A DNA stretch of 64,000 bases from Spinellus fusiger (taxonomy: Eukaryota > Mucoromycota > Mucoromycetes > Mucorales > Phycomycetaceae), in contig JALLLS010000015.1 of assembly GCA_025094145.1 (NCBI GenBank), positions 62,001 to 126,000 of the forward strand. Direction: 5' to 3'. A program made the translations under genes and the position numbers. Shown here piece after piece: positions 3,630 to 46,526 of the stretch (positions are counted from its first letter, which is position 1; each line of letters begins with the position of its first letter). The notes under the pieces were generated by a model that saw nothing but the letters and a program-made list of their open reading frames with translations, was not told the DNA's origin and did not search any database.

Positions 3630-4274
3630 CTAGGGTTTTGTAGCTGCAATAGCAGTTCCTCCCAAGAAACGAGGTGCATATTTTGCCCAGCCAAGCTGAT
3701 GCAGTTTCCGCACGACGGCAGGAGTAATAGCAGCTGTTACGGTCAGTCGAACAGGTAAGAATAATGTCTTGTGAATTGTGTAGGCTAGTAAGAAGATGGA
3801 CGTAAATGAAGGACGCTCTTCTTCTTCAGACTGAGGTGTTTCTTCAATATTTTTAGCTTCTGGAGGTGTTTCCTTGACTGGTAAACCCACGTATGTTTTT
3901 GCACTATTAAGAATATCCATAGCACTTGCTTCTACTTGTTTTACTTTATCAAGGCCAGCAAACTCAATGGCCAGTAATACGGCACCAAGGTCAATCATGC
4001 CAATACCCAAGTAGACAATCACTCCTGCTGCACCATATTTCTGAGCAAGTTCCTTGAGCTTTCCTACTTTCTTTTCAGATTTTGCATGTGCTAATACTTG
4101 AGGTGAAGATGTCAGGGTTTCGATTTTTGTTGTTGTATTATCTTTTATGTAGTATCTTAGTCCTTGTTTATAAGGAATTATAGGTTTTCGAACTGGAAAT
4201 AGGGTCCTTGAAGCTACTCTCGGCCCTAATGGTTTGGCAAGGTGGTAAAGACGAGTAAAAGAACGGAAAGACAT
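3630..4274 (-). CDS. FAM210/DUF1279 family mitochondrial membrane protein
   Basis: Uninterrupted 214-residue ORF. The N-terminus is Arg/Ser-rich and lacks acidic residues (RSFTRLYHLAK... to about residue 45), typical of a mitochondrial presequence. Residues about 68-115 contain the DUF1279 signature: KELAQKYGAAGVIVYLGIG followed by MIDLGAVLLAIEFAGLD, the latter part hydrophobic. After an acidic Glu/Pro linker (about 145-160) a second hydrophobic region (about 163-200) ends in LGWAKYAPRFLGG. The human relatives FAM210A/B act in the inner mitochondrial membrane, in mitochondrial translation and metabolism. The role here is inferred from the family only. Length and domain order fit a full-length fungal member. 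The ATG is the first in frame and is preceded by A/T-rich promoter DNA. Confidence 0.85.
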   Translation of the reverse strand: MSFRSFTRLYHLAKPLGPRVASRTLFPVRKPIIPYKQGLRYYIKDNTTTKIETLTSSPQVLAHAKSEKKVGKLKELAQKYGAAGVIVYLGIGMIDLGAVLLAIEFAGLDKVKQVEASAMDILNSAKTYVGLPVKETPPEAKNIEETPQSEEEERPSFTSIFLLAYTIHKTLFLPVRLTVTAAITPAVVRKLHQLGWAKYAPRFLGGTAIAATKP

Positions 4275-5180
4275 AGTAAAGGGAAAGGAACAACCATTGA
4301 GGTTGTTTTGACGTATTTAACTCGGAACAAGTATAGCGTGACTGCCCTGACTTCGGAACATATCAGTCTAAATATAAAAAAAAGTGGCATTCATGTTTAT
4401 TCGTAATCCTTCAAACTCCGACATATATTTCCACTTTTCCCCATTTTTTATACTTAAGCTTTGTGTGGCAAAACTATTTTTATTCCTTGACTATAGACAT
4501 TGAATTTATATCAAAAAGATATAGACACTTAGATAATCTATATTTTCAGGTGATGAATAATTTTTTTATTTTATAATACGGAATATATAGGGATTGTCAG
4601 TGAACAACTGGAATTTAGTTGATTCAACTTAAAGAGTGGAAACAATCAGACCCCGAATGACTCAAACTAAGCTTTCTAAGGTACATGAACAACTTGAATC
4701 AGTTTAAGATGTATTTCTTTATTTGATGAAAAATACAGTTGCTTCCTGAAGCACCTTGCTATTCATAGCGACAATTAACTTTAGGGTCAATAAGTCTACA
4801 AGAAAAGAACAAGAAAAAACAGGCAAGAAGGAATACATGGTTTTATCTAGTGTAATCAAAGTTACCATTATTACGTCCTGCAATTATAACAATAACTATA
4901 ATATTATAGGCCCTTTGTCTTCCGATAATGCATAAATTCGGCAGGTAGTGACAGATCATAGACCGTGTTAGTAACTGAAGCCCAATTCATGGGGTTTTCT
5001 TAACAGAGATGTATAGCTTGGAAGAAATAAAGTATTTTTTATTTCATTTCATATCTGTTCTTCATCAGTATTGACATCATTTATACATGTATATATAATA
5101 AAACTATTAGTCTATTAGTAAAAAACCATCTCTCTATGTAGATAAAGACTACTTATTTATGTAGTGGGATAGTCTTAAAG
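4275..5180. other. AT-rich intergenic region, no gene seen
   Basis: About 900 bp upstream of the FAM210-like gene, ending at the inverted-repeat terminus of the next mobile element (5181). No ORF with family resemblance and no structured repeat apart from A/T runs. Confidence 0.5.
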
Positions 5181-6569
5181 TACACACCTAAAGATCTTTA
5201 GGATATAAAAAGAAATAGTTGAAATACAATTGTTTAAAAATAACAAATTGATTTGAAAAGGAGCAAAAATAAGTTGAGACCTATTCATGTTAGTTTTTAA
5301 ACAAATAAAAACTATGTAGATTTACCTGTAAATGTCTGAATCACATAGGAAAACACTTTCGATGTGGCGGTATATAATATAAATATAAATATAAATATCT
5401 ATGCTTCTCGACAGAAAGGAACTGGTCAGTGGCGATCATTCAAAACCTCTTCTGCAATTGTATAGATATTCTTTGATGCATTCACATCTCTGTTCCAAAC
5501 AATTCCACAACTTTCGCAAGCGTGGATATTGTTGAAATTCATGAATACCTCGGTGAGGTTATTTGTGTTATAAGTGTGGCAGATCTTGAGAAAAACAAAA
5601 TAAAACAGAGTAACTGTTAGAAGAGCTTTTCATATTATTTGACAGGTCAATCATGTTTACTCTCGATTTTCGAAATTTATCAACATCAACCATAAGAAGA
5701 TCTCTACCCTTTTGTCTCTTTTTTCAATGATTGATATAAAATTCTCATCAAACCAACACGATGACCTTTGAACTTGGCAGCATCTTTTACCTTTATTCCT
5801 GTGCTATAGGCAACGACTGGCAGTTTGGTAGGATTATACTCCAATCCTTTTAGGTGCCAATACCCCTTTTCAATAATAAAATAATAGTAAAAATAATTAG
5901 TTCGAGATGTATTAATGTACTCTCTATGTGTGTGTCGTATTACTCTTGCACTGGCACCTTCTTCTTGCCTTTGTCTTTGTAATGGATTCACTGAGTTTAT
6001 TATAGTAAAAGAATATACAATAGAAACTGACTAACATGTCAGACATAATAAACATATAATCACCAGATCACAACTGTTGGTTTATATGCCAAACAAAGGC
6101 AAACAAGTTAAAGAGGGTAGAAGTTATGAAGAACAACAGACAGTGTAATTTGCAGGTATTTATATCCAAGCAGAAGAGAACAAAACAAAATTTCACAATT
6201 CATTTGCTTAATCAGAACTACCAAAGTAATGTAGACTACAACAACATTTTAGAAAGAAAAGAATTTCTTAAAGAACAGTTGCCTAGTTACCCGTTGTGAT
6301 CAAATCGTATGTTGTGTTTCTGTTCATGTACCCTTTTTGAATTCCCTAGACTAGCCTTTGTACTAATAATCTATTTTAAGTCCCCACTAGAGACCGAACT
6401 ACTACCAATTCATCTCTCTAGTGGTCTTGTTGATAACCGCAGTATCCTTTATTACAGATACTTGCAAACCTTTGATTTTAAATACAGTTCCATAAAAGGG
6501 CAAAATATTTTCGGACGTAAAAGGAAGTAAATATCACCGCCTAAAGGCCAGAGAATCTTTGGGTGTGTA
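5181..6569 (-). mobile_element. TIR element (copy A) carrying a Fanzor-type nuclease relic
   Basis: About 1.39 kb bounded by TACACACC at 5181 and its inverse GGTGTGTA ending at 6569. The imperfect terminal inverted repeat extends about 30 bp: AAAGATC...ATATAAA inside the left end, and GGCCTTTAGGCGGTGATAT (read on the minus strand) inside the other. Read on the minus strand, a non-coding 5' part (6569 to about 6000) is followed by the nuclease relic (5991-5399) and about 200 bp of non-coding 3' end. The last 900 bp or so are strongly similar to copy B at 45.6-46.5 kb. No clear target-site duplication could be assigned. It is a degenerate, probably immobile copy: at about 1.4 kb it is too short for a full-length Fanzor gene. 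Confidence 0.75.
5399..5991 (-). pseudogene. Fanzor (TnpB-like RNA-guided nuclease) C-terminal relic, copy A
   Basis: The reading frame runs from about 5991, shifts near the KKETKG stretch, then continues as GRDLLMVDVDKFRKSR. A GTAAAC...CTAAC...CAAG intron-like segment (5660-5585) is followed by ICHTYN...ACESCG, then VWNRDVNASKNIYTIAEE. This is the C-terminal pattern of TnpB/Fanzor proteins: a zinc ribbon followed by the RuvC-III catalytic Asp in the NRDxNA context. One ribbon Cys is changed (CxxH/Y instead of CxxC in the first pair). An in-frame TGA follows EVLNDRH. The N-terminal half, including RuvC-I, is absent. I read this as a dead copy. The family call rests on motif recognition, not on a database search. 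Confidence 0.7.
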
Positions 6570-6675
6570 GAAAGCAGTCATGTGATCAAGACAGCTAATT
6601 TAACAATAAGATAATCCATGTGCCATCTTTGAACTTGGTCTCATTGTCCTTTCTGCTTCCATTACTACTAGGGCA

Positions 6676-9600
6676 ATGTATATACCTATTCCAACTGTAT
6701 CTCATGAGGAAATTATCAATGTTCTTGAGGACTTCTATAAGAATCACAGAATAAACTCGGACCATTCTAGTCCACATGAAGTATCTTCACTTAACAACCA
6801 CTATACATATGACTCTGTACACGACACTCACTCACCGACAGAACACTCTCAGTTCATACCCGTTTCTGATAGGAGCAGAATAGACAATAGAAACAGGTAG
6901 AAAGAAGCGGTATAATAGCTCAATAGGACCCTATGAGAATTAATACAAAGCTGTTCTTTCCTTCTTTGTCTTACTAGTGCCTTTGTCTCAACTACAGGTA
7001 GAGACAAAAGCCCTTATAGTAGCAATGGGACTTTTCCTGAGACAACACCATTCAATCACAATCACAAGTACTCTGAAGAAAAATCTTTAGCTGCCAGTGA
7101 TAGAATACTAAAAGACACGCCAATCAAAACCAACCGCCCCTCACTTACCTGCTTTGAGGATATGAAATCTTCTGCTATGCAAAATTGGACAAGTGGTGTG
7201 GATTTCGAGATGCAGTCAAAAGAAATCACAAGGGCAAAACAAACTCCCTGGCTTACAGCGTCTGAATTCAACAACCTATCATCACCTAAAGAAGCAATCT
7301 CTATACTTCCTCCAAGTGAGGTGACGCCACCCACCTATGCAAAGGTTACTTCTCAAAAGCCTCCTGCAGATCCTCCAGCATGGATATTATACAATGAACA
7401 TTCTTCTGAACCAACAAACACAGTCTTTTCTACACCACAATCTATCATCTCCTATGAAACAGAATTCGAAAAAATACCAGTAGAAGAGAACGTAAGCCTA
7501 TTCATATTTGCCTATTCAATCCAGCGCCAGTTGTTTGGAGAACATACTCTATCTCGCTTTCAAGAAAGAATAGAAGATATGATACAGCTTGTACACTCTA
7601 TGGATTATCGTACATTGGGAATGTTCATTCAGGCATTATGCTTCGCTGTTGAACTAGAAAGAGCAGAACTTAAGCTTACTACTGAGCCCTATGCTGCAAA
7701 TGAACCTTCTTTCCGGGAAGATCTTCCCAAGACAAGGGTTTCTGATGCACTTGTGACTCATTATCCTATATTTCTTGAGGCTATTGAAACGTACATTCAG
7801 ACATACATAGCTTCACCAGAAGAAGTCATCTCACTGTTAAAATTCTTCCTAAACTTTGCAGTTCAATGTCCAGTGTGTGTAGACTCGATCCCTTTGGGGG
7901 CCATTAACATCCAGTTCAATGAGAAGAAATCCATCTTTCTTGAGAATGAGATTCAGCAAGTGAATGGCTTGCTTCGAGAGATTTCTTCCCTTCAAAAGAG
8001 AGATATTTGGTTTAATATCAATGATGAATCTTCCCATGACCACCCTTCTGATATGATGGGACCAGAAGGCATTAGTGCTTATTGGATAGAAGAGTGGCGA
8101 TCATTAAAAGAACATTCTCTTAAATTGTTTACGGGCAGTATGCTTGCTGAAGAAGTGCTGGATAGATTGAATTCTAAAAATGAAACGATTTATCCAATGT
8201 GGTATCCTGAAGGAGTAAAAACAAACGTCGTTGGAAATAGTGATATGGCCTCCATTGTTAACACTTCATGGCTGTCTTCGAGCCTGGACATTTACTTGTC
8301 GGTACACTATGCTATCTTGCGTGAATTATTATGGGGTCCTGTTCGACAGGCATTAAAGTGTTATGTTACTCAGCAGAACCCATCTACAGAGAACATCTAT
8401 TGGAGTGTAATTCATGAGTTACAAGTGTACAGTACATCTTTATCAGCTTCTGTCATTACACCTACCATAGTATTTGAGTCGTTAATCAATAAGGCAGTCG
8501 GTACATCAGACCCAGTTTCTATCCAAGAGGGATCACTAGCAGTACTGATACCCTCCACCCACAAATTACCCCATGATCTTGCTTCTCTAGCCTCTTTATC
8601 CAGTCATATTATTACAGGCACTGTATCCAGTTTTATTTCTCAGCCTGTTTCTAATGATACTCTTGATACACTTTATATGTTATCTCTGCATATTGAGCAG
8701 GAAGAGATAAAGAAACTCCGCCGTTCCTCAGGCTATACCATGATTGCTACCTCGATGAAAGGTGCTCCTATGTTGCCGATTCTTTCATGGTTACGAAAAG
8801 AAGCTACTCAGTTCGATAAAAGAATGTTCTCAACACCTGTATTGGATCGGTTATTGACAGTGACTCACAATTCACCCGCTGATTCATCCTCTAATAATCA
8901 AAAACAACCCAAAGAAAATCAAAGAGAAATAGATGAAAATCATACTGTACCTTTATACTTGCAAAATTCCGAGATTGATATTTCCTGTATTGTTACTGAA
9001 GCATTTGCCAATAGTAAAGCACGTCCTGGGCAGGGTGTATGGCCACAACTGCCATCCAAGTATATGTCTATGCCCATCCACAGTCGACCTGATATATACA
9101 CGCTATCACACAGTCAACTCAGTGCTGGAAAACATGCATTATATAATCGTGTAGCTGTCATCTCTGGCTCTACAGGTACAGGAAAAACGTACTTGGCCAG
9201 CAAAGTGGGAGTGTTGACACATCAAGCACTGGTGACTAGTCAAGTATTTCATCCGATTCTACTATTGACAAAAAATGAAGCAACCCTTGAGGAAATTCTT
9301 GAAAATGTAGTGGATGAGATCCCTCATTTAATCCACTTGGGGATCAGTACAAATAACAAGAAACTTATTCCTCGTGAGGGCTACAAACTATTTGGTATGG
9401 ACTCAAAAGATCAAAATCGTCGCTACATCCTTCAAATGGAAAGACATCAGGCAACTCTACAAGCCAATTTGAAAGCATTATGGGATTATCGATTCCGTAT
9501 ACAAAATTCAGATTTTCATACACTGATGACTATTATTCCTCCTGATTATATGTATCATCTAAGGCAGGTCATTCATAAAAAGCCTTACAATGTTTCCCTA

Positions 9601-12600
9601 AAGAACAACGAGCGTATCGTAAGAGCATGGCTTTATGATACACAGCCTTCTCAAAACAATGTATCCGACTCTCTCCCCCTAACAAAAGACTTTGAACTAT
9701 GGAATACTGCTTACACAGCTCTTTTGGAATCCTTGTCCCCCCCTGACACATACAAGCGTACCTCTCATTTGACAGATCCTAGTGCGTACAGTGATAAACT
9801 ATCATGGATCCAGAACCATAGACCTCATATTTACAGCATTGAAGAAGCCACGAATTGGCCACTATCCACCTCTCCTTCTGCCTCTCACATCCGTACTGCT
9901 CTTTATAACATATGGTCTCGAAAACCCCCCGAGTATATCTGGTTTATCAGTGTCGAAGAAAGAAGAGAAATTTGGGTTAATGCTGTGCGCACCGTATTGA
10001 GATTCATTGATCAAGATATTGACAGACACTTGGAAGAGCAATTGAAACTGTCCGAGGCCCTAGATGCTTTTAGACTACAGCGATGGGGTGCTGAGTGTTG
10101 TTTGAGTCGTTTCATTGGCATGACTATGGAGTTTGCTACAGTGCACCAAGAGTTTGTAAGAAGCCTTTGTCCAAGCATTGTTATTGTTGATGAAGCCTCC
10201 GAAATCCTGGAGTCGTCTCTTATTCCTTTTATTTTTGGTCCTCGAATGGAGCATCTTATTCTTTTCGGCGATGATAAGCATATGCTGAACTCACAGGCAC
10301 TAGATGCATTATCAGATTCACCCCGAGGACTGGATGTCTCCTTGTTTGAACGATGGACAATGACAGGTGGTAAAGTGCTCCAGTTAAAAGAACAGTGGCG
10401 TATGTGCAGTGAGATAAATGAGATACACAGCGTGCTGAGTCCTGTTTTATTGGAAGAGGAAAACAAAATAGATAGTACAGTGCCACCGCTCTCTGGACTT
10501 GACAATCGCACATATTTTGTATCAATGGATACAGAAATAACTTGTGAATATACTGATAATGAATTGAGTAATAAGTTTGGAGAAAAGATCTATGAAAGTA
10601 TGTCTGATGAGGCCCGTTACGTGTGTCGATTGGCACTTTATTACCTGCAGCAAAGCCAAGAACCTATCGATGCATCTATTCTTGTACTTGATCCTGTGCA
10701 AAAGAGGCTAATACAATGGTTAATTATGAATGAAATGAAAAACTACAGCAGGTTATCAAAGGCTCCTTTATTATTGACAGTTTTATTGGTGGAAGAATGC
10801 GGTATTCAAGAAAGAGATATTGTTTTCTTCTCGCTTTGCATGTCAAAAAATAGCAAAGCATCCGAAGAACAGATTTCTTTTGCTTTATCTCGAGCAAGAT
10901 ATGGTCTTTATTTTGTGGGAGATACTTCAGCTCTTGTTGGAACCCCTTGGAAGAAGATAATTCACTACATGAAGTTAAAAGGTAAACTATTCACATCTAC
11001 ACACACATATATATATATTCTATCAATGCGTGTTTTACTTTTTATGGAGCATTGACTCTTTCTCTTTCTTACTCACTATGAAGGAATATGCTCACCTAAC
11101 CTCCAGTTACGCTGTATGAAACACAAAGATCGTACAACCATTGTTACTTACTGGCAGGACTTTAATAAAGTCGTTAATGGAGGATGCGCGGTAGAGTCGA
11201 TTTCATAGTACCAAATAGAAAAAGAGAGGGAAAAATTCACTTACTATGATTTTTAGTTACCCTGCGAAACCCTTATGAAATGTGGCCATGTGTGTCAAGA
11301 AGTAACTATAGATGCTGCACTCTTTTTCTTACAGTATTCTATTAGAGCTGCCATATTCTAGACCACTCTCGGATTCCGTGTACAAACAAATGTGTCAGAC
11401 CTCGTCCGGAAGGATGTCCACATGCATGTCCCAATAGTTGTCATGTGTGTGAAAAACAAAAAAGGGCATGTCCTCCATGCACAGAACTTGTGTGTTTTGA
11501 GCCTCCTTGTGGGCATGAACGTCTAGTTGAATGCTATACGGTTATATTAGATAATATGGACAATGCTAGGAGGTTTATGGAAGAACAGTTAACAAAAATA
11601 GGGGAAGTTGCTGATAATATTGGCAGAAACTTTCAAATAGTGTGTACTGAGAGATGCAGCAGACCGTTGAGTTGTGGTCATGCCTGTCCTAACCTAGTAC
11701 GTACTCCGGTGATAAAATATGGTTTTGTGCTTATACGTGTGCATTGATATGAACTGAATTTTAGTGTGGGGCTGAACACTCTCATGATGCCATTGAATGC
11801 AAGGCCAGCTGTACAAAACAGTTGATTTGTGGGCACTATTGCGCAGAAGGTAAGTCTGTCTTAGGTGAGCGTAATGTTAACACGATTAGGGTGTGCACAG
11901 CCTAATGAACATACTGAGAGATGCCTAGAGCCATGTCAGCAAGTATGTTCTCATAGATACAAGTGTGGAAGAGATTGCTGGGAAGTCTGTACTCCTTGTA
12001 ATGAAAGCTGCCCTTACAGTGTATGTAGACTAAGATAATTCACTGTTATTATTACTATTATTATTACTATAATGTTGACACATTGTATACTATAGTGCGC
12101 TCATGGAAAGTGTAATAAGCGATGTCATGAAGTAAGTATATTGACTTACTATTAGCAAGAGAATAGCACTGCTTAACCGTACTGTTTAGAAATGTGATCG
12201 ACCTCCTTGCAATGAGAGCTGTAAAGAAATCCTGCCTTGCTCGTAAGTGGTTAAATAACATAGTAAACGGATAGGTATAGACATTCATGAACTTTTTTCT
12301 TTCTTTCTATAGACATTTATGCATTGGACTTTGCGGTGAAGAATGTCCACCCTGTAGAGTATGCTATCCTGATATAAAGTGCTCCATTTCCCTACGAATC
12401 TTAGGAGAATTCGAATCAGATGAAAGATCTTATGTTTTACCAGAGTGTAAATGTGGTATGTGTCTGAATTCCCATTTGGTTCATCCAATAATATTAAGCG
12501 TTCTCTCGCCTTACTGATTATTGCTATTAGTTTTCTCTGTTGAGTTTCTTGATATGTACTTTGAGAATCAGGCAAAGAATGGTAAGTTAGGATAGATTTA

Positions 12601-15160: not shown

Positions 15161-16333
15161 TACACACCCGAGGATTTTTCTGGCCTTTAAGCGGTGATAT
15201 ATCCTTCCTTTTACGTCACAATAAAAATTCCCTTTTATGTGTCGATGTTTAAAATCAAAAGGTTTGCAAGTATCTAGATTATTATTTCCTTTTGTAGAAT
15301 ACCTCACTATCAAATTGTATTATCAATAGAATATAGTGTTGATGAATAGAGTTGTTTATTGTAATAGTATAGCTAATACTATAGTATGACTATAGCTACT
15401 GCCTAAGTAGATTCCTTCATAGAAATAGAATCTATACCCTAAAAGCCTTGTACTATATCCTTGGGAGATAGATAACCATGCTCAGGAGTATACCTTAGAG
15501 ACCCTAGACAGTATATAAGAAAGAAAAGACCACATGAGACTGACTTGAAAGGAGTCTTTACTTGCCTAATATCAAAAGAGTGTATTAGTAATAATTCAAT
15601 CAAGAGAGATAGTATGCTTACCTTGTACTCCATATTTGTCTTGAGAATAATAAGCCATATATTATCTATTAAAATAAGTTAGTACTATATCCTGCCTGTA
15701 AGAACGGTGAGCTTGATAAATTCAAGAAAGTGCAACACTCCAAGACCCTTCAGAAGAGAGAAGAATCTTACAGTGACATGTCATGGTCTTTAAAGGTAAA
15801 AAGCTTATATATATGATAGTCAAAGAAAAGACCAATAAGTTTATTATTATTATTATTATTTATTTTATTTATGTGCAAAAACCAACAATGTTTGAAGATC
15901 ATGACCAAATCTGCTGGAGTTTCTGATGAGATGATTTCTCAATACTTTTGGAATCAGGACATGGCAGCAACATTGAACTTTCGTCATGTTCGTTTTTTGG
16001 GCTAAGAGAAGAAGGCAAACGGTCCAAATGCTTTTGTCGATCCAAGACAGTACAGTCTGTTGGTACCAAAAGAAAGGAGTCGCTCTTAGCTAGTGGTAGT
16101 CGACCCACCAAAACATCAAAGAAGAATCCGGTGTAGTTATCACTGCACTAAACCAAGATACACATAAGTCTTTTTTGGAGCCATACTACATTTCTACACT
16201 ATTTTATTCTTCAAAAAAGGTACCAATAATTTATGAAAATGCCCTTTTTAAAACATGTTAGCCAATCATAAAAGTAGTATTTTTGTATTGTCTGTGTATT
16301 TACTTTTATATCCCAAAAATCTTTAGGTGTGTA
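15161..16333 (+). mobile_element. TIR element with a second type of Fanzor-like relic
   Basis: Starts with TACACACCCGAGGATTTTTC (15161) and ends ...AAAATCTTTAGGTGTGTA (16333), the same terminal repeats as copy A. The left 480 bp match the elements at 43.8 and 59.3 kb: GGCCTTTAAGCGGTGATAT, then a stretch encoding VLYPWEID-like peptides. The right part (15.69-16.14 kb) encodes a TnpB/Fanzor-like zinc-ribbon/RuvC-III relic. Within it lies a TTA microsatellite (about 15840-15863). About 1.17 kb in total, degenerate. Confidence 0.65.
15694..16136 (+). pseudogene. Fanzor-like nuclease C-terminal relic, distinct lineage
   Basis: Pieces in shifting frames read CKNGELDKFKK, then TPRPFRREKN...TVTCHGL, then CKNQQCL, and finally YFWNQDMAATLNFRHV followed by LREEGKRSKCFCRSK and a basic tail. 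The order Cys pair, TCHGL.RC...C, W-N-x-D-x-A-A-x-L-N-F-R-H and a Lys/Arg-rich end is that of the zinc ribbon and RuvC-III segment of TnpB/Fanzor-type proteins. It differs clearly from copies A and B (VWNRDVNASKNIYTI). Several frameshifts and stops make it a pseudogene. The alternative, another transposon-encoded zinc protein, cannot be fully excluded without a profile search. Confidence 0.55.
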
Positions 16334-43816: not shown

Positions 43817-45063
43817 TACACACCAGGAGATTTTTCTGGCCTTTAAGCGATGATATCTTCGCCTTTTAAAATCGAAGACTTCTTGCCTTTTATGGAACTT
43901 CATTTAAAACGAAAGGTTTGCGGATATCAAAAATAATATTTCTTTTTGTGGATACCTCAATATCAAATTATACTATTAGTAAAATATATTGTTTATGAAT
44001 AAAATTGTTTATTATAATAGTATAGATAATACTATAGTATGACTATAGCTACTGCCCAAGTGAATTCCATCATAGCAATAGAATCTATACCTAAAGGCCC
44101 TGTGCTTTATCCTTGGGAGATAGATAACTATGCTCAGGAGTATACCCTAGACATTATTGACCTTGTAGAAGACCACCTAAGACTGACTTGAGAGCCTTTG
44201 CTTAATAACAATACAATAAGTGTCTTGTGGATTACAATGAGCTCAAGCCTAGACGAAGACACTGCTTACTTTTTCATCACTAGACTAGTCTTTGGTAGTG
44301 TCTATCACCTCTTTCTATTGTTTCTCTTTGTTAATAATGGCACATTACCTTGCTCAGTTATGCTCATCTTGACTAGTACTTGAGTGTTAAGTTGTATGTG
44401 CAATGTGTGAAATAACAAAGGGAGGGGAATATCAAAACAAATTATTCTTCTTTATTCTGGTGAGGTATACACTAGTCTCCACTCATCAAATTCAAAGTCA
44501 AATTCACGTCAAATCTACAAGTCAAACAATTCACACTCTATTTGCCTTGTCGGCCTAGTCAATAAAGAATACAAAAAAAAAACTCTATTTGCCTTGAGCC
44601 TAAAGCCCAGTATTAGAAACAATACCCTGTTATCATCAAGTACTATTGTTAATAACAGTTACAATAACATAGTTGTTGAAGTGATTATGAATATTGAGTC
44701 AATAAATGAATACAATGTTCCTAACATAAGTGAGTTTGGTTCTATTTTATGGACAATGACCACTAGAGTTAATTTAGTGTGTTCTATAGTAAATCTTTCT
44801 TAAGCAGTGTCATACTGCAAATACTGTGGGCTTAAGAATAACACATTATGTTAAGAAAATAATATCAGTGATTGAGTTGCAATGTCAGGTTTACTTCTTC
44901 CTTTTATCCAACTTTATAGTGCTTAATTACACAGTCCATAGTCAATGCCAAGGCAGACAGACAGCGAAAAGGTTCTTTTTAAACACATTAGCCAACAAAA
45001 CAAATAATATAATTTCATTGTTCATGTATTTCCCTTTATATTCCAAAAATATTCTGTTGCTAT
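43817..45063 (+). mobile_element. TIR element related to 15.2 kb and 59.3 kb copies
   Basis: Starts TACACACCAGGAGATTTTTC (43817) followed by GGCCTTTAAGCGATGATAT. Its 3' end (about 44965-45063) matches the shared terminal region (TTTTTAAACA..TTAGCCAA ... CCCTTTATATTCCAAAAAT) but has lost the final GGTGTGTA. The interior encodes VLYPWEIDNYAQEYTLDIIDLVEDHLRLT (43.97-44.19 kb, in one frame), then scattered ORF pieces up to IESINEYNVP...FGSILWTM (44.69-44.76 kb). These match the 59.3 kb copy. The encoded protein is not recognised. No nuclease motif is seen in this copy. Confidence 0.55.
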
Positions 45064-45559
45064 GAGACAAGAGACACACAGGACCTCGTAAGGCTGGTTA
45101 CTCATACGAAGATTGACAGAAAAGAGAAGGGTGTGGGCTGACAGAAGGCAAACTAATGGTTGTAATAATAATGGCATCTTATGGAAATACAGAAAGAAAA
45201 CAAGTCGAGAATAAGAAACAGTCAGTTGCTCAAGTCCTTAAAGCCTATCTTGTTTATACTCTAGGAAGCTGTTTGGATTAAAGTCTATTTTATTAAGGAT
45301 GTAGACAACTAAAGATTTATACTATTTTAATATTTCTTTATTTTACTATGAATTTGTCTAATTTGCTGTTCTCAAGCAATAGATATGATCTTCATAGAAC
45401 ATTCAGGCAGACTGGGAAAGATAGCTGTCCTGTTCCATAGTGTGTATAATCTCGGTTCTGTATTTCAAGGCCATAGAATTCCATAAAGTGATTTTATTGT
45501 AAAAAGGGGCTCTCTCTTCCCTTGAAACATACATAGGACAAGAGGAGGAAACCCATCTC
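45064..45559. other. Intergenic region between element copies
   Basis: About 500 bp with no supported ORF. It may contain the unrecognised, diverged 5' portion of the Fanzor element copy B, whose left terminus was not found. Confidence 0.4.
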
Positions 45560-46526
45560 TAAATTTACTGAGATGTTGTTGTTTTTCATAACTTCTACCC
45601 TCTTTATTTTGTTTGCCTTTGTTTGGCATATAAACCAACAGTTGTGATCTGGTGAGTGTTTGTGTATGTTTATTATGTCTGACATGTTAGTCAGTTTCTA
45701 TTGTATATTCTTTTACTATAATAAACCCAGTGAATACTTTAAAAAGGCATAGGCAAGAAGAAGGTGCTAGTGTGAGGGTAATACGACACACACATAGAGA
45801 GTACATTAATACATCTCGAACTAATTATTTTTACTGTTTTATTATTGAAAAGGGGTATTGGCACCTAGAAGGATTAGAGTATGATCCTACCAAACTGCTA
45901 GTCGTTGCTTATGGCACAGGAATAAAGGTAAAAGATGCTGCCAAGTTCAAAGTTCATCGTGTTGGCTTGACGAGAATTTTATATCAATCATTGAAAAAAG
46001 AGACAGAAAGACGGAGATCTTCTTGTGGTTGATGTTGATGAGTTCCTTACATCGAAAGTAAACATGATTGACCTCTTACCCAATATGAAAAGCTCTTCTA
46101 ACAGTTAGTTTTATTTTTGTTCTCAAGATCTGCTATACTTGTAGCACAGACAGCCTCACTGAGGTATTAATAAATTTCAACAATATCCGCGCTTGCCAAA
46201 GTTGCGGAATTGTTTGGAACAGAGATGTGAATGCATCAAAAAATATCTATACGATTGCAGAAGAGGTTTTGAATGGTCGCCACCGACCAGTTCCATTCTG
46301 TCGAGAAGAATAGATATTTGTATTCATATTTTATATAGCCACATCGAAAGTGGTTTCCTTTGGGATTCAGATATCTACAGGTAAATTTACATGATAATCT
46401 TTATTTGTTTAAAAACTAACATGAATACATCTCACTTTATTTTTGCTCCTTTTCAAATCAATGTCATTTTTAAACAACTGTAGTTCGACTATTTCCTTTT
46501 ATATCCTAAGGACCTCCTGGTGTGTA
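45560..46526 (+). mobile_element. Fanzor-bearing TIR element, copy B (5'-truncated)
   Basis: From about 45560 the sequence matches copy A (reverse strand of 5181-6130) through non-coding leader, coding relic and 3' non-coding end, finishing with CCTGGTGTGTA at 46526. The left inverted repeat is not visible, so the copy is truncated or diverged at its 5' end. The similarity over about 900 bp, with intron and 3' end in the same positions, shows that both derive from one family. Confidence 0.7.
45730..46312 (+). pseudogene. Fanzor (TnpB-like RNA-guided nuclease) C-terminal relic, copy B
   Basis: First frame: RVIRHTHREYINTSRTNY, HLEGLEYDPTKLLVVAYGTG, KVKDAAKFKVHRVGL to KKETERR. A one-base frame change follows, then LVVDVDEFLTSK. 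An intron-like segment lies at 46058-46127 (GTAAAC ... TCTAAC ... CTCAAG). After it, ICYTCS...NIRACQSCGIVWNRDVNASKNIYTIAEEVLNGRHRPVPFCREE ends at a TAG (46312). The two CxxC pairs of the zinc ribbon and the RuvC-III Asp (NRDVNA) are all preserved here. RuvC-I and the N-terminal domains are missing, so the copy cannot encode an active nuclease. Known Fanzor proteins in fungi are often carried by DNA transposons, in agreement with the terminal repeats. Confidence 0.72.

Follow-up and report, generated by a model that had tools for sequence, protein, structure and literature searches.

The window analysed here, a stretch of 64,000 nucleotides (contig C57:62001-126000) of the 38.1-Mb assembly of Spinellus fusiger (Mucorales, Phycomycetaceae; 197 contigs), contains on its minus strand a short coding fragment that resembles the end of an RNA-guided nuclease. 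This raises the question from which protein the fragment derives, what carried it to its present place and whether any part of it still works. The sequence-only reading had noted a zinc ribbon followed by the RuvC-III motif VWNRDVNASKNI at positions 5399-5991 and proposed kinship with TnpB and Fanzor proteins. Both motifs are indeed contained in the minus-strand frame 5426-5629, the translation of which ends ...FNNIHACESCGIVWNRDVNASKNIYTIAEEVLNDRH before the stop, and profile comparison places the region in the TnpB/Fanzor/Cas12f zinc-ribbon family: in the Pfam search the frame matches PF07282 (Cas12f1-like TNB) with E 4.2e-7 and 30.5 bits, the cut-off of this family being 26.3 bits. Judged by these matches, positions 5399-5980 of the minus strand are to be read as the C-terminal part of a Fanzor-type protein, apparently split by two introns.

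Homology to a longer Fanzor gene on contig C13 starts with the end of an upstream exon (..RQEEGASAR, 5944-5980, minus strand). It is followed by a putative intron 1 of 78 bases (gtaata..aaaag, 5866-5943, minus strand), which is the same stretch that is skipped in an annotated partial protein of S. fusiger (BDF14DRAFT_1710815, here P0001), by exon 2 (GYWHLKGLEYNPTKLPVVAYS..VDVDKFRKSR, 5661-5865, minus strand), by a putative intron 2 of 76 bases (gtaaac..ctcaag, 5585-5660, minus strand) and by exon 3 (5399-5584, minus strand), which bears the zinc ribbon (CHTY..CESC) and RuvC-III and accounts for the PF07282 match. The second intron breaks up the zinc ribbon, with 'DEFRTS' on its 5' side and the first CxxC on its 3' side. 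In copy A, as we call the copy under study, the second cysteine of the first pair is replaced by Tyr and the Glu of 'DEF' by Lys; there is a frameshift in exon 2 and an extra stop near the end of exon 3, so that the damage exceeds what the motif suggests. Across many copies a colinear reading can be followed from ..RQEEGASAR over intron 1 to GYWHLKGLEYDPTKLPVVAYGTGIKVKDAAKFKGHRVGLTRILYQSLKKRQ..VDVDEFRTSR and over intron 2 to ICHTCNT..ACQSCGIVWNRDVNASKNIYTIAEE..RPVPFCREE. The spliced C-terminal reading, a mosaic of copies, reaches 46.8 bits against PF07282 (E 3.4e-12) and matches the NCBIfam model guided_TnpB with E 1.8e-7, which is under the cut-off set by that model for whole proteins. A protein search with the same reading retrieved, besides P0001, six relatives of 522-718 residues (E 1.9e-6 to 1.7e-4). 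When the mosaic S. fusiger row is aligned with these Fanzor-like proteins, all four cysteines, EFRTS and WNRDVN show no variation.

A profile of this alignment, which is dominated by the six relatives and not by the S. fusiger row, finds SpuFz1 (1.2e-53), PpFz1 from Parasitella, likewise a member of the Mucorales (1.7e-36), and GtFz1 from Guillardia (1.3e-28) in the PDB, and weakly also LaTranC. The S. fusiger part alone finds LaTranC (5.2e-5), the TnpB-like L79 (7.7e-4), a mimivirus protein, Cas12m and, with E 0.13, SpuFz1, so that Fanzor1 is the favoured, not the proven, protein class.

The complete element that carries the fragment, as delimited by comparison of copies, comprises 1389 bp (5181-6569, minus strand) including the TA at both edges, and is a non-autonomous derivative. 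Its ends are TACACACC...GGTGTGTA; each reads TACACACC in the inward direction, and the two agree at 14 of their first 17 bases. The left terminal inverted repeat, TACACACCCAAAGATTC (6553-6569, minus strand), is located 5' relative to the Fanzor fragment and the right one (5181-5197) reads TACACACCTAAAGATCT on the plus strand. An element with inverted repeats of its own had already been proposed for this locus; its repeats are confirmed, and it extends beyond the coordinates then given. TA is the outermost dinucleotide on either side, that is, the inverted ends are flanked by TA. A search for an empty site among the extracted sequence stretches returned no convincing one, the best being a 66% match of the flanks of one copy (L051) to a long Fanzor-bearing copy (L045), and the interpretation of TA as a duplicated target therefore rests on its presence at both edges. 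Between the left end and the upstream exon lies a stretch of about 480 bp (region X, 5981-6458, minus strand) that is common to many derivatives and gave 40 scored matches from 461 candidates genome-wide. It has no match at the C13 locus, which consequently is not the direct parent of the short copies. The 3' non-coding stretch (5198-5398, minus strand) is the expected place of a guide-RNA scaffold.

The element is situated between a FAM210-domain frame (3630-4316, minus strand) and a helicase-like frame (6937-11055, plus strand), in what looks like the shared upstream region of the two. The latter encodes 1372 aa with AAA_12 and AAA_19 over the Pfam cut-off and AAA_11 just below it. Its start and the left end of copy A are about 370 bp apart, or about 100 bp if 6610-6900 is the first exon of this frame, and at this distance the insertion may sit in its promoter.

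Copies of the fragment are numerous. The zinc-ribbon profile PF07282 gave 150 matches among the best 150 of 457 candidates scored, the weakest with E 7.1e-4 and three under the cut-off. Bases 5395-6000 (606 bases) recur in all 40 scored of 514 candidates, each match covering at least 604 of the 606 bases; apart from the window itself (100%) the 39 others are 89-92% identical. The exact right-end pattern occurs 378 times in the genome and the left-type pattern, TACACACCAGGAGATTT, 515 times, while the backward-read control yielded neither. We delimited 56 copies with different right flanks after dropping five entries that represented the same place twice; some of the 56 are near-identical duplicated segments. 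Both ends were seen in 32 of them, a left end being counted when the match started no later than base 20; in the other 24 the extracted stretch was often too short to show it. Thirteen of these 32, copy A included, are 1369-1398 bp long, align as one block and have a common junction about 115 bases into the element, so copy A is a member of a class of about 1.39 kb. Other two-ended elements have kept an interior of up to 3094 bp or are reduced down to 798 bp; one of 1908 bp at L052 probably consists of two elements joined by the delimiting rule. When exact left and right patterns were paired along the contigs with complete lists (C1 to C35:79150), 32 cases of 780-4032 bp were obtained, nine of them at 1349-1383 bp. 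Elements with the ends of the Fanzor element and lacking a full gene, the feature by which ghost loci are recognised, thus occur in this family.

The window itself holds a second copy, copy B (43817-46526, plus strand), of the same family, which measures 2710 bp and has a less deleted interior, and a same-ended element of 1173 bp devoid of the Fanzor part (15161-16333, plus strand). A match links the latter to L055:4273-6372, and a further match links L055:4273-6372 to the interior of the long Fanzor-bearing copy L045. A same-ended element at L052:3245-5816 is enclosed by two Fanzor 3' fragments that are inverted relative to each other, and the zinc-ribbon places on contig C172 suggest that this unit occurs twice.

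Longer relatives with matching ends, to which the sequence-only reading had pointed as a check, were found in part: a RuvC-I-like motif is present at both C13 and C127, while the right end is the same at C13 and altered at C127. At C13:406829-412528 a same-ended element of 1056 bp is followed by a Fanzor gene and then by the same right end. C127 contains a similar gene from the N-terminal region onward, and its right end aligns but lacks the exact GGTGTGTA. The RuvC-I-like motif (GVDLGRKHIFAA at C13, GVDPDRKHIF at C127) lies upstream of and in line with the C-terminal exons, and P0001, pieces of which are encoded by C13 at 91-96%, unites the motif (GVDLG/GVDPD) and the C-terminal part in a single protein. 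The RuvC-I exon, which copy A lacks, gave 25 matches (all 25 candidates scored) that group into only 19 loci, as against 150 scored zinc-ribbon copies from 457 candidates, and at 14 of the 19 loci stops interrupt the match. Taken alone, this exon aligns weakly in hhalign, centred on the right site (E 0.12); it has no match in the PDB and matches only P0001, from the same genome, in the protein collection. The N-terminal piece likewise has no match in the PDB. The genes at C13 and C127 appear broken elsewhere, and the copy at C139 (L044) lacks exon 2 and part of exon 3; no intact Fanzor gene was seen at the three RuvC-I loci read out of 19 (C13, C127, C139). The sequence-only reading had asked for longer relatives with both RuvC-I and RuvC-II, and of these two the loci speak to RuvC-I.

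The exons retained in the short copies have decayed. Of the 50 copies that can be aligned over exon 2, 35 have it frameshifted and 37 have it broken; exon 3 is broken in 16 of 56, and both are open in 10 of 50. The Glu position of DEF is occupied by Glu in 26, by Lys in 23 and by Asn in one of 50 copies; at the second cysteine Tyr prevails (35/56) over Cys (20/56), with one copy that could not be assigned. As most copies show the frameshift and the Tyr, many of them probably descend from a founder whose protein was already dead. Minor variants affect all three codon positions evenly. The ratio of nonsynonymous to synonymous changes relative to expectation amounts to 1.22 for exon 2 and 1.09 for exon 3 in 34 copies and to 0.92 and 1.07, respectively, in 54 copies, and within this range of 0.92-1.22 no purifying selection on the exons is seen; for exon 2 the test loses sharpness, since the majority line contains the frameshift and codons beyond it are read out of frame.

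A working guide RNA at the right end is not supported by the fold, Rfam and conservation tests. RNAalifold was run on 120-base windows on both strands of 34 copies with 30 column shuffles each (60 tests), and the four lowest z-scores fell near the right end (A1068-1350 in coordinates of copy A), three of them on the antisense strand. With 100 shuffles the sense window A1148-1268 moved from z -2.55 to -0.93 (20 of 100 shuffles as low), and the sense windows from A1148 onward, with z -0.93, -0.65, +0.71 and +0.93, give no indication of a conserved fold. The lowest value of all, z -3.64 with 2 of 100 shuffles as low, belongs to the antisense window A1228-1350 (5223-5345 of the window, plus strand), which we rejected as a guide RNA because antisense windows elsewhere are also low (-2.10 to -2.66). 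Rfam returned no match over 5000-6700. Mean pairwise identity in 23 copies is 0.847-0.921 in the three 3' non-coding regions and 0.847-0.935 over all twelve element regions, so the 3' end has no general excess of conservation. As the copies are AT-rich and about 90% identical, these tests are low in power.

In our judgement copy A is very probably a dead, non-autonomous transposon copy with a captured Fanzor end, brought about by capture, truncation and amplification in trans by a transposase similar to those of Tc1/mariner elements. According to this account a Fanzor gene, probably a Fanzor1, would have been captured, in S. fusiger or one of its ancestors, beside an element with inverted repeats and TA flanks, with a second copy of the right end being used in the process. 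The composite would then have lost the N-terminal two thirds of the Fanzor gene, RuvC-I included, through an internal deletion. What remained, the final exons together with the 3' non-coding stretch and the two ends, would have been multiplied in trans by a transposase, most likely one of the Tc1/mariner group, and the Fanzor exons have since drifted without visible selection. In this account the homology, the ends, the counted copy numbers, the scarcity of the RuvC-I exon and the neutral pattern are observations; the capture, the sequence of deletion and amplification and the type of transposase are inferences. The layout at C13, where a same-ended element, a Fanzor gene and the same right end follow each other, supports this account. 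Transposases of the DDE_3 (Tc1/mariner) type are abundant in the genome (174 matches, from the best 150 of 1544 candidates scored), though none is tied to these ends, and no intact transposase with these ends was found. Some of the DDE_3 matches lie in frames of more than 400 aa with no stops inside the match. The same-ended 2.1-kb element L055:4273-6372 contains a frame of 128 aa with a weak helix-turn-helix of the Sleeping Beauty type (E 0.0035, below cut-off), relatives of which gave 150 matches genome-wide (best 150 of 421 candidates scored); it is a possible relic of the transposase source. A Pfam search of nine pieces (Fanzor N-terminal/RuvC-I, interiors of long copies, L055 and L040) returned a single match over the cut-off, a DDE_3 in L040. 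We did not accept it as the transposase of the family, as it is a neighbouring transposase and not shown to share the ends.

Two alternatives concern the coding fragment itself. One assigns it to an unrelated zinc protein, for example of the Vps36 zinc-finger type, and draws on PF16988, the sole other Pfam match up to E 1; that match (E 0.017) stays under its cut-off, while copy A's own frame passes that of PF07282, the spliced mosaic with its 46.8 bits agrees with the six Fanzor-like proteins in all four cysteines, in EFRTS and in WNRDVN, and no better-fitting profile turned up in Pfam or NCBIfam. We consider the probability of this assignment negligible. The other holds that the host has adopted the exons for a small protein with a DNA-binding or regulatory role. 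The RuvC-III Asp (NRDxNA) and the third Cys are each retained in 56 of 56 copies with exon 3, which speaks for such an adoption, but part of this sample was chosen by the zinc-ribbon profile, which favours intact motifs. Our main account, for its part, has to face that the WNRDVNASKNI stretch is the best-conserved 50-base window (0.953, the next 0.944) in the 23 copies chosen by DNA similarity; neutrality requires neither this nor the invariant Asp, though the motif itself served to choose part of the sample. Against adoption stand the few copies with both exons open and the substitution ratio near 1, and we regard it as very unlikely, if less so than an unrelated zinc protein.

A further alternative to passive amplification of dead copies deserves more weight, even if we still consider it unlikely. 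The short copies might be working 'ghost' loci that produce a guide RNA from their 3' end, with the flanking host DNA as guide; a Fanzor supplied in trans would cut the empty site, repair would keep or copy the element, and the TAM in the left flank would read (T)CTA. TAMs of TnpB and Fanzor systems generally adjoin the left end, and TA is the target of Tc1/mariner transposases, which treat both sides alike. A transposase acting on the palindromic TA should therefore leave no difference between the sides, whereas a Fanzor TAM would be present on the left only, and an excess of C before the left TA is what a TAM would give. At left-type ends the base before TA is C in 337 of 515 cases, at Fanzor-type right ends in 158 of 378 (Fisher p 3e-12, duplicated segments included), and the left value should be diluted, as the left pattern also takes in right ends of elements lacking a Fanzor, such as C13:407868. 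Along C1 to C35:79150, of the 32 left ends that have a Fanzor-type right end as partner, 25 show C, as compared with 37 of 68 unpaired ones (p 0.028) and 35 of 72 right ends (p 0.005); ends of pairs without a Fanzor-type right end show it in 5 of 13 cases (p 0.016 against the same 25 of 32). Within the 32 pairs, again with duplicated segments retained, C is present only on the left in 11 and only on the right in two (sign test p 0.022), and in flanks cut by hand, with identical ones removed, C at 19 of 26 left ends compares with G at 23 of 55 right ends (p 0.0099). There is also a precedent in SpuFz1, for which a CATA TAM, a CA conserved upstream of the left end in genes and ghosts alike and ghost RNAs active with the protein are described (PMC10432273). 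On the other hand, the 3' end exhibits no conserved sense-strand fold, no Rfam match and no general conservation excess, no intact Fanzor gene was seen at the three RuvC-I loci read out of 19, and unpaired ends do not differ from right ends in C (p 0.50). In addition, the background of C before TA in the window is 19.7%, and the right ends lie so far above it that a target preference of the transposase explains part of the effect. Because several comparisons are involved and only the genome-wide count is large, the asymmetry as a trace of a TAM is suggestive only, a lead and not a demonstration. The more far-reaching idea that S. fusiger had or has a Fanzor with the TAM (T)CTA, that the hundreds of truncated copies formed its repertoire of guide RNAs in trans, that cutting of empty sites and not transposase alone decided which insertions survived, and that the C excess on the left is the footprint of this process, appears improbable to a similar degree.

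By analogy, the preferred reading of copy A as a dead passenger makes it comparable to the 'ghost' loci of Spu-1 in Spizellomyces punctatus, where 134 ghosts and 42 loci with full or partial genes are counted (PMC10432273). In both, numerous elements have Fanzor1 transposon ends without a full gene, a dinucleotide upstream of the left end is conserved and no transposase was found within the ends (PMC10432273); inverted repeats and putative TA target duplications are likewise features of Spu-1 (PMC3627910). Unlike our copies, the Spu-1 ghosts keep a guide-RNA region of 75 nt within about 550 nt (PMC10432273), whereas the S. fusiger copies retain about 800 bp of the 3' end of the gene with exons and introns, are more numerous and gave no support for a guide RNA in the fold and Rfam tests. 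A second parallel is offered by CMe-1A/TE-N2_CMe of Cyanidioschyzon merolae, a Fanzor1 element whose 5' part is a whole separate transposon present in about 150 copies (PMC3627910). Its counterpart in S. fusiger is the C13 locus with the 1056-bp same-ended element plus Fanzor. CMe-1A/TE-N2_CMe differs in that it is described as lacking terminal inverted repeats and in that some copies encode an intact Fanzor1 (PMC3627910). The TA flanks, the terminal inverted repeats and, in some cases, a cargo consisting of Fanzor only are shared with PUl-4 and PGv-1, in which Fanzor1 resides in Tc1/mariner elements (PMC3627910), but the S. fusiger protein is truncated and dead and the kinship with mariner lacks an intact transposase as proof. 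The structure of Fanzor1 from Parasitella parasitica (PDB 9cf0; PMC11423790) is matched when the S. fusiger reading forms part of a profile with its relatives; on its own, the C-terminus from S. fusiger does not match it at E up to 1. The TAM of the Parasitella enzyme is given as ATN (PMC11423790). For SpuFz1 and GtFz1, the TAMs CATA and TTAA appear in opposite order in passages of PMC11423790 and PMC10432273, with CATA belonging to SpuFz1 according to the latter. The Spu-1 ghosts and CMe-1A are the closest precedents and the kind of element is already known; a description of this S. fusiger family was not found in the literature searched on Fanzor, fungi, transposons, Mucoromycota and Spinellus fusiger.

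The family illustrates the extent to which a transposon with a Fanzor can decay and still multiply: its nuclease is dead, yet the 3' end of the gene persists in hundreds of copies. If the flank asymmetry did reflect a TAM, the insertion sites of such families would let Fanzor targeting be read from genome sequence alone. They would also offer a way to ask whether Fanzors help elements in trans, a possibility raised in the discussion of the Spu-1 work (PMC10432273).
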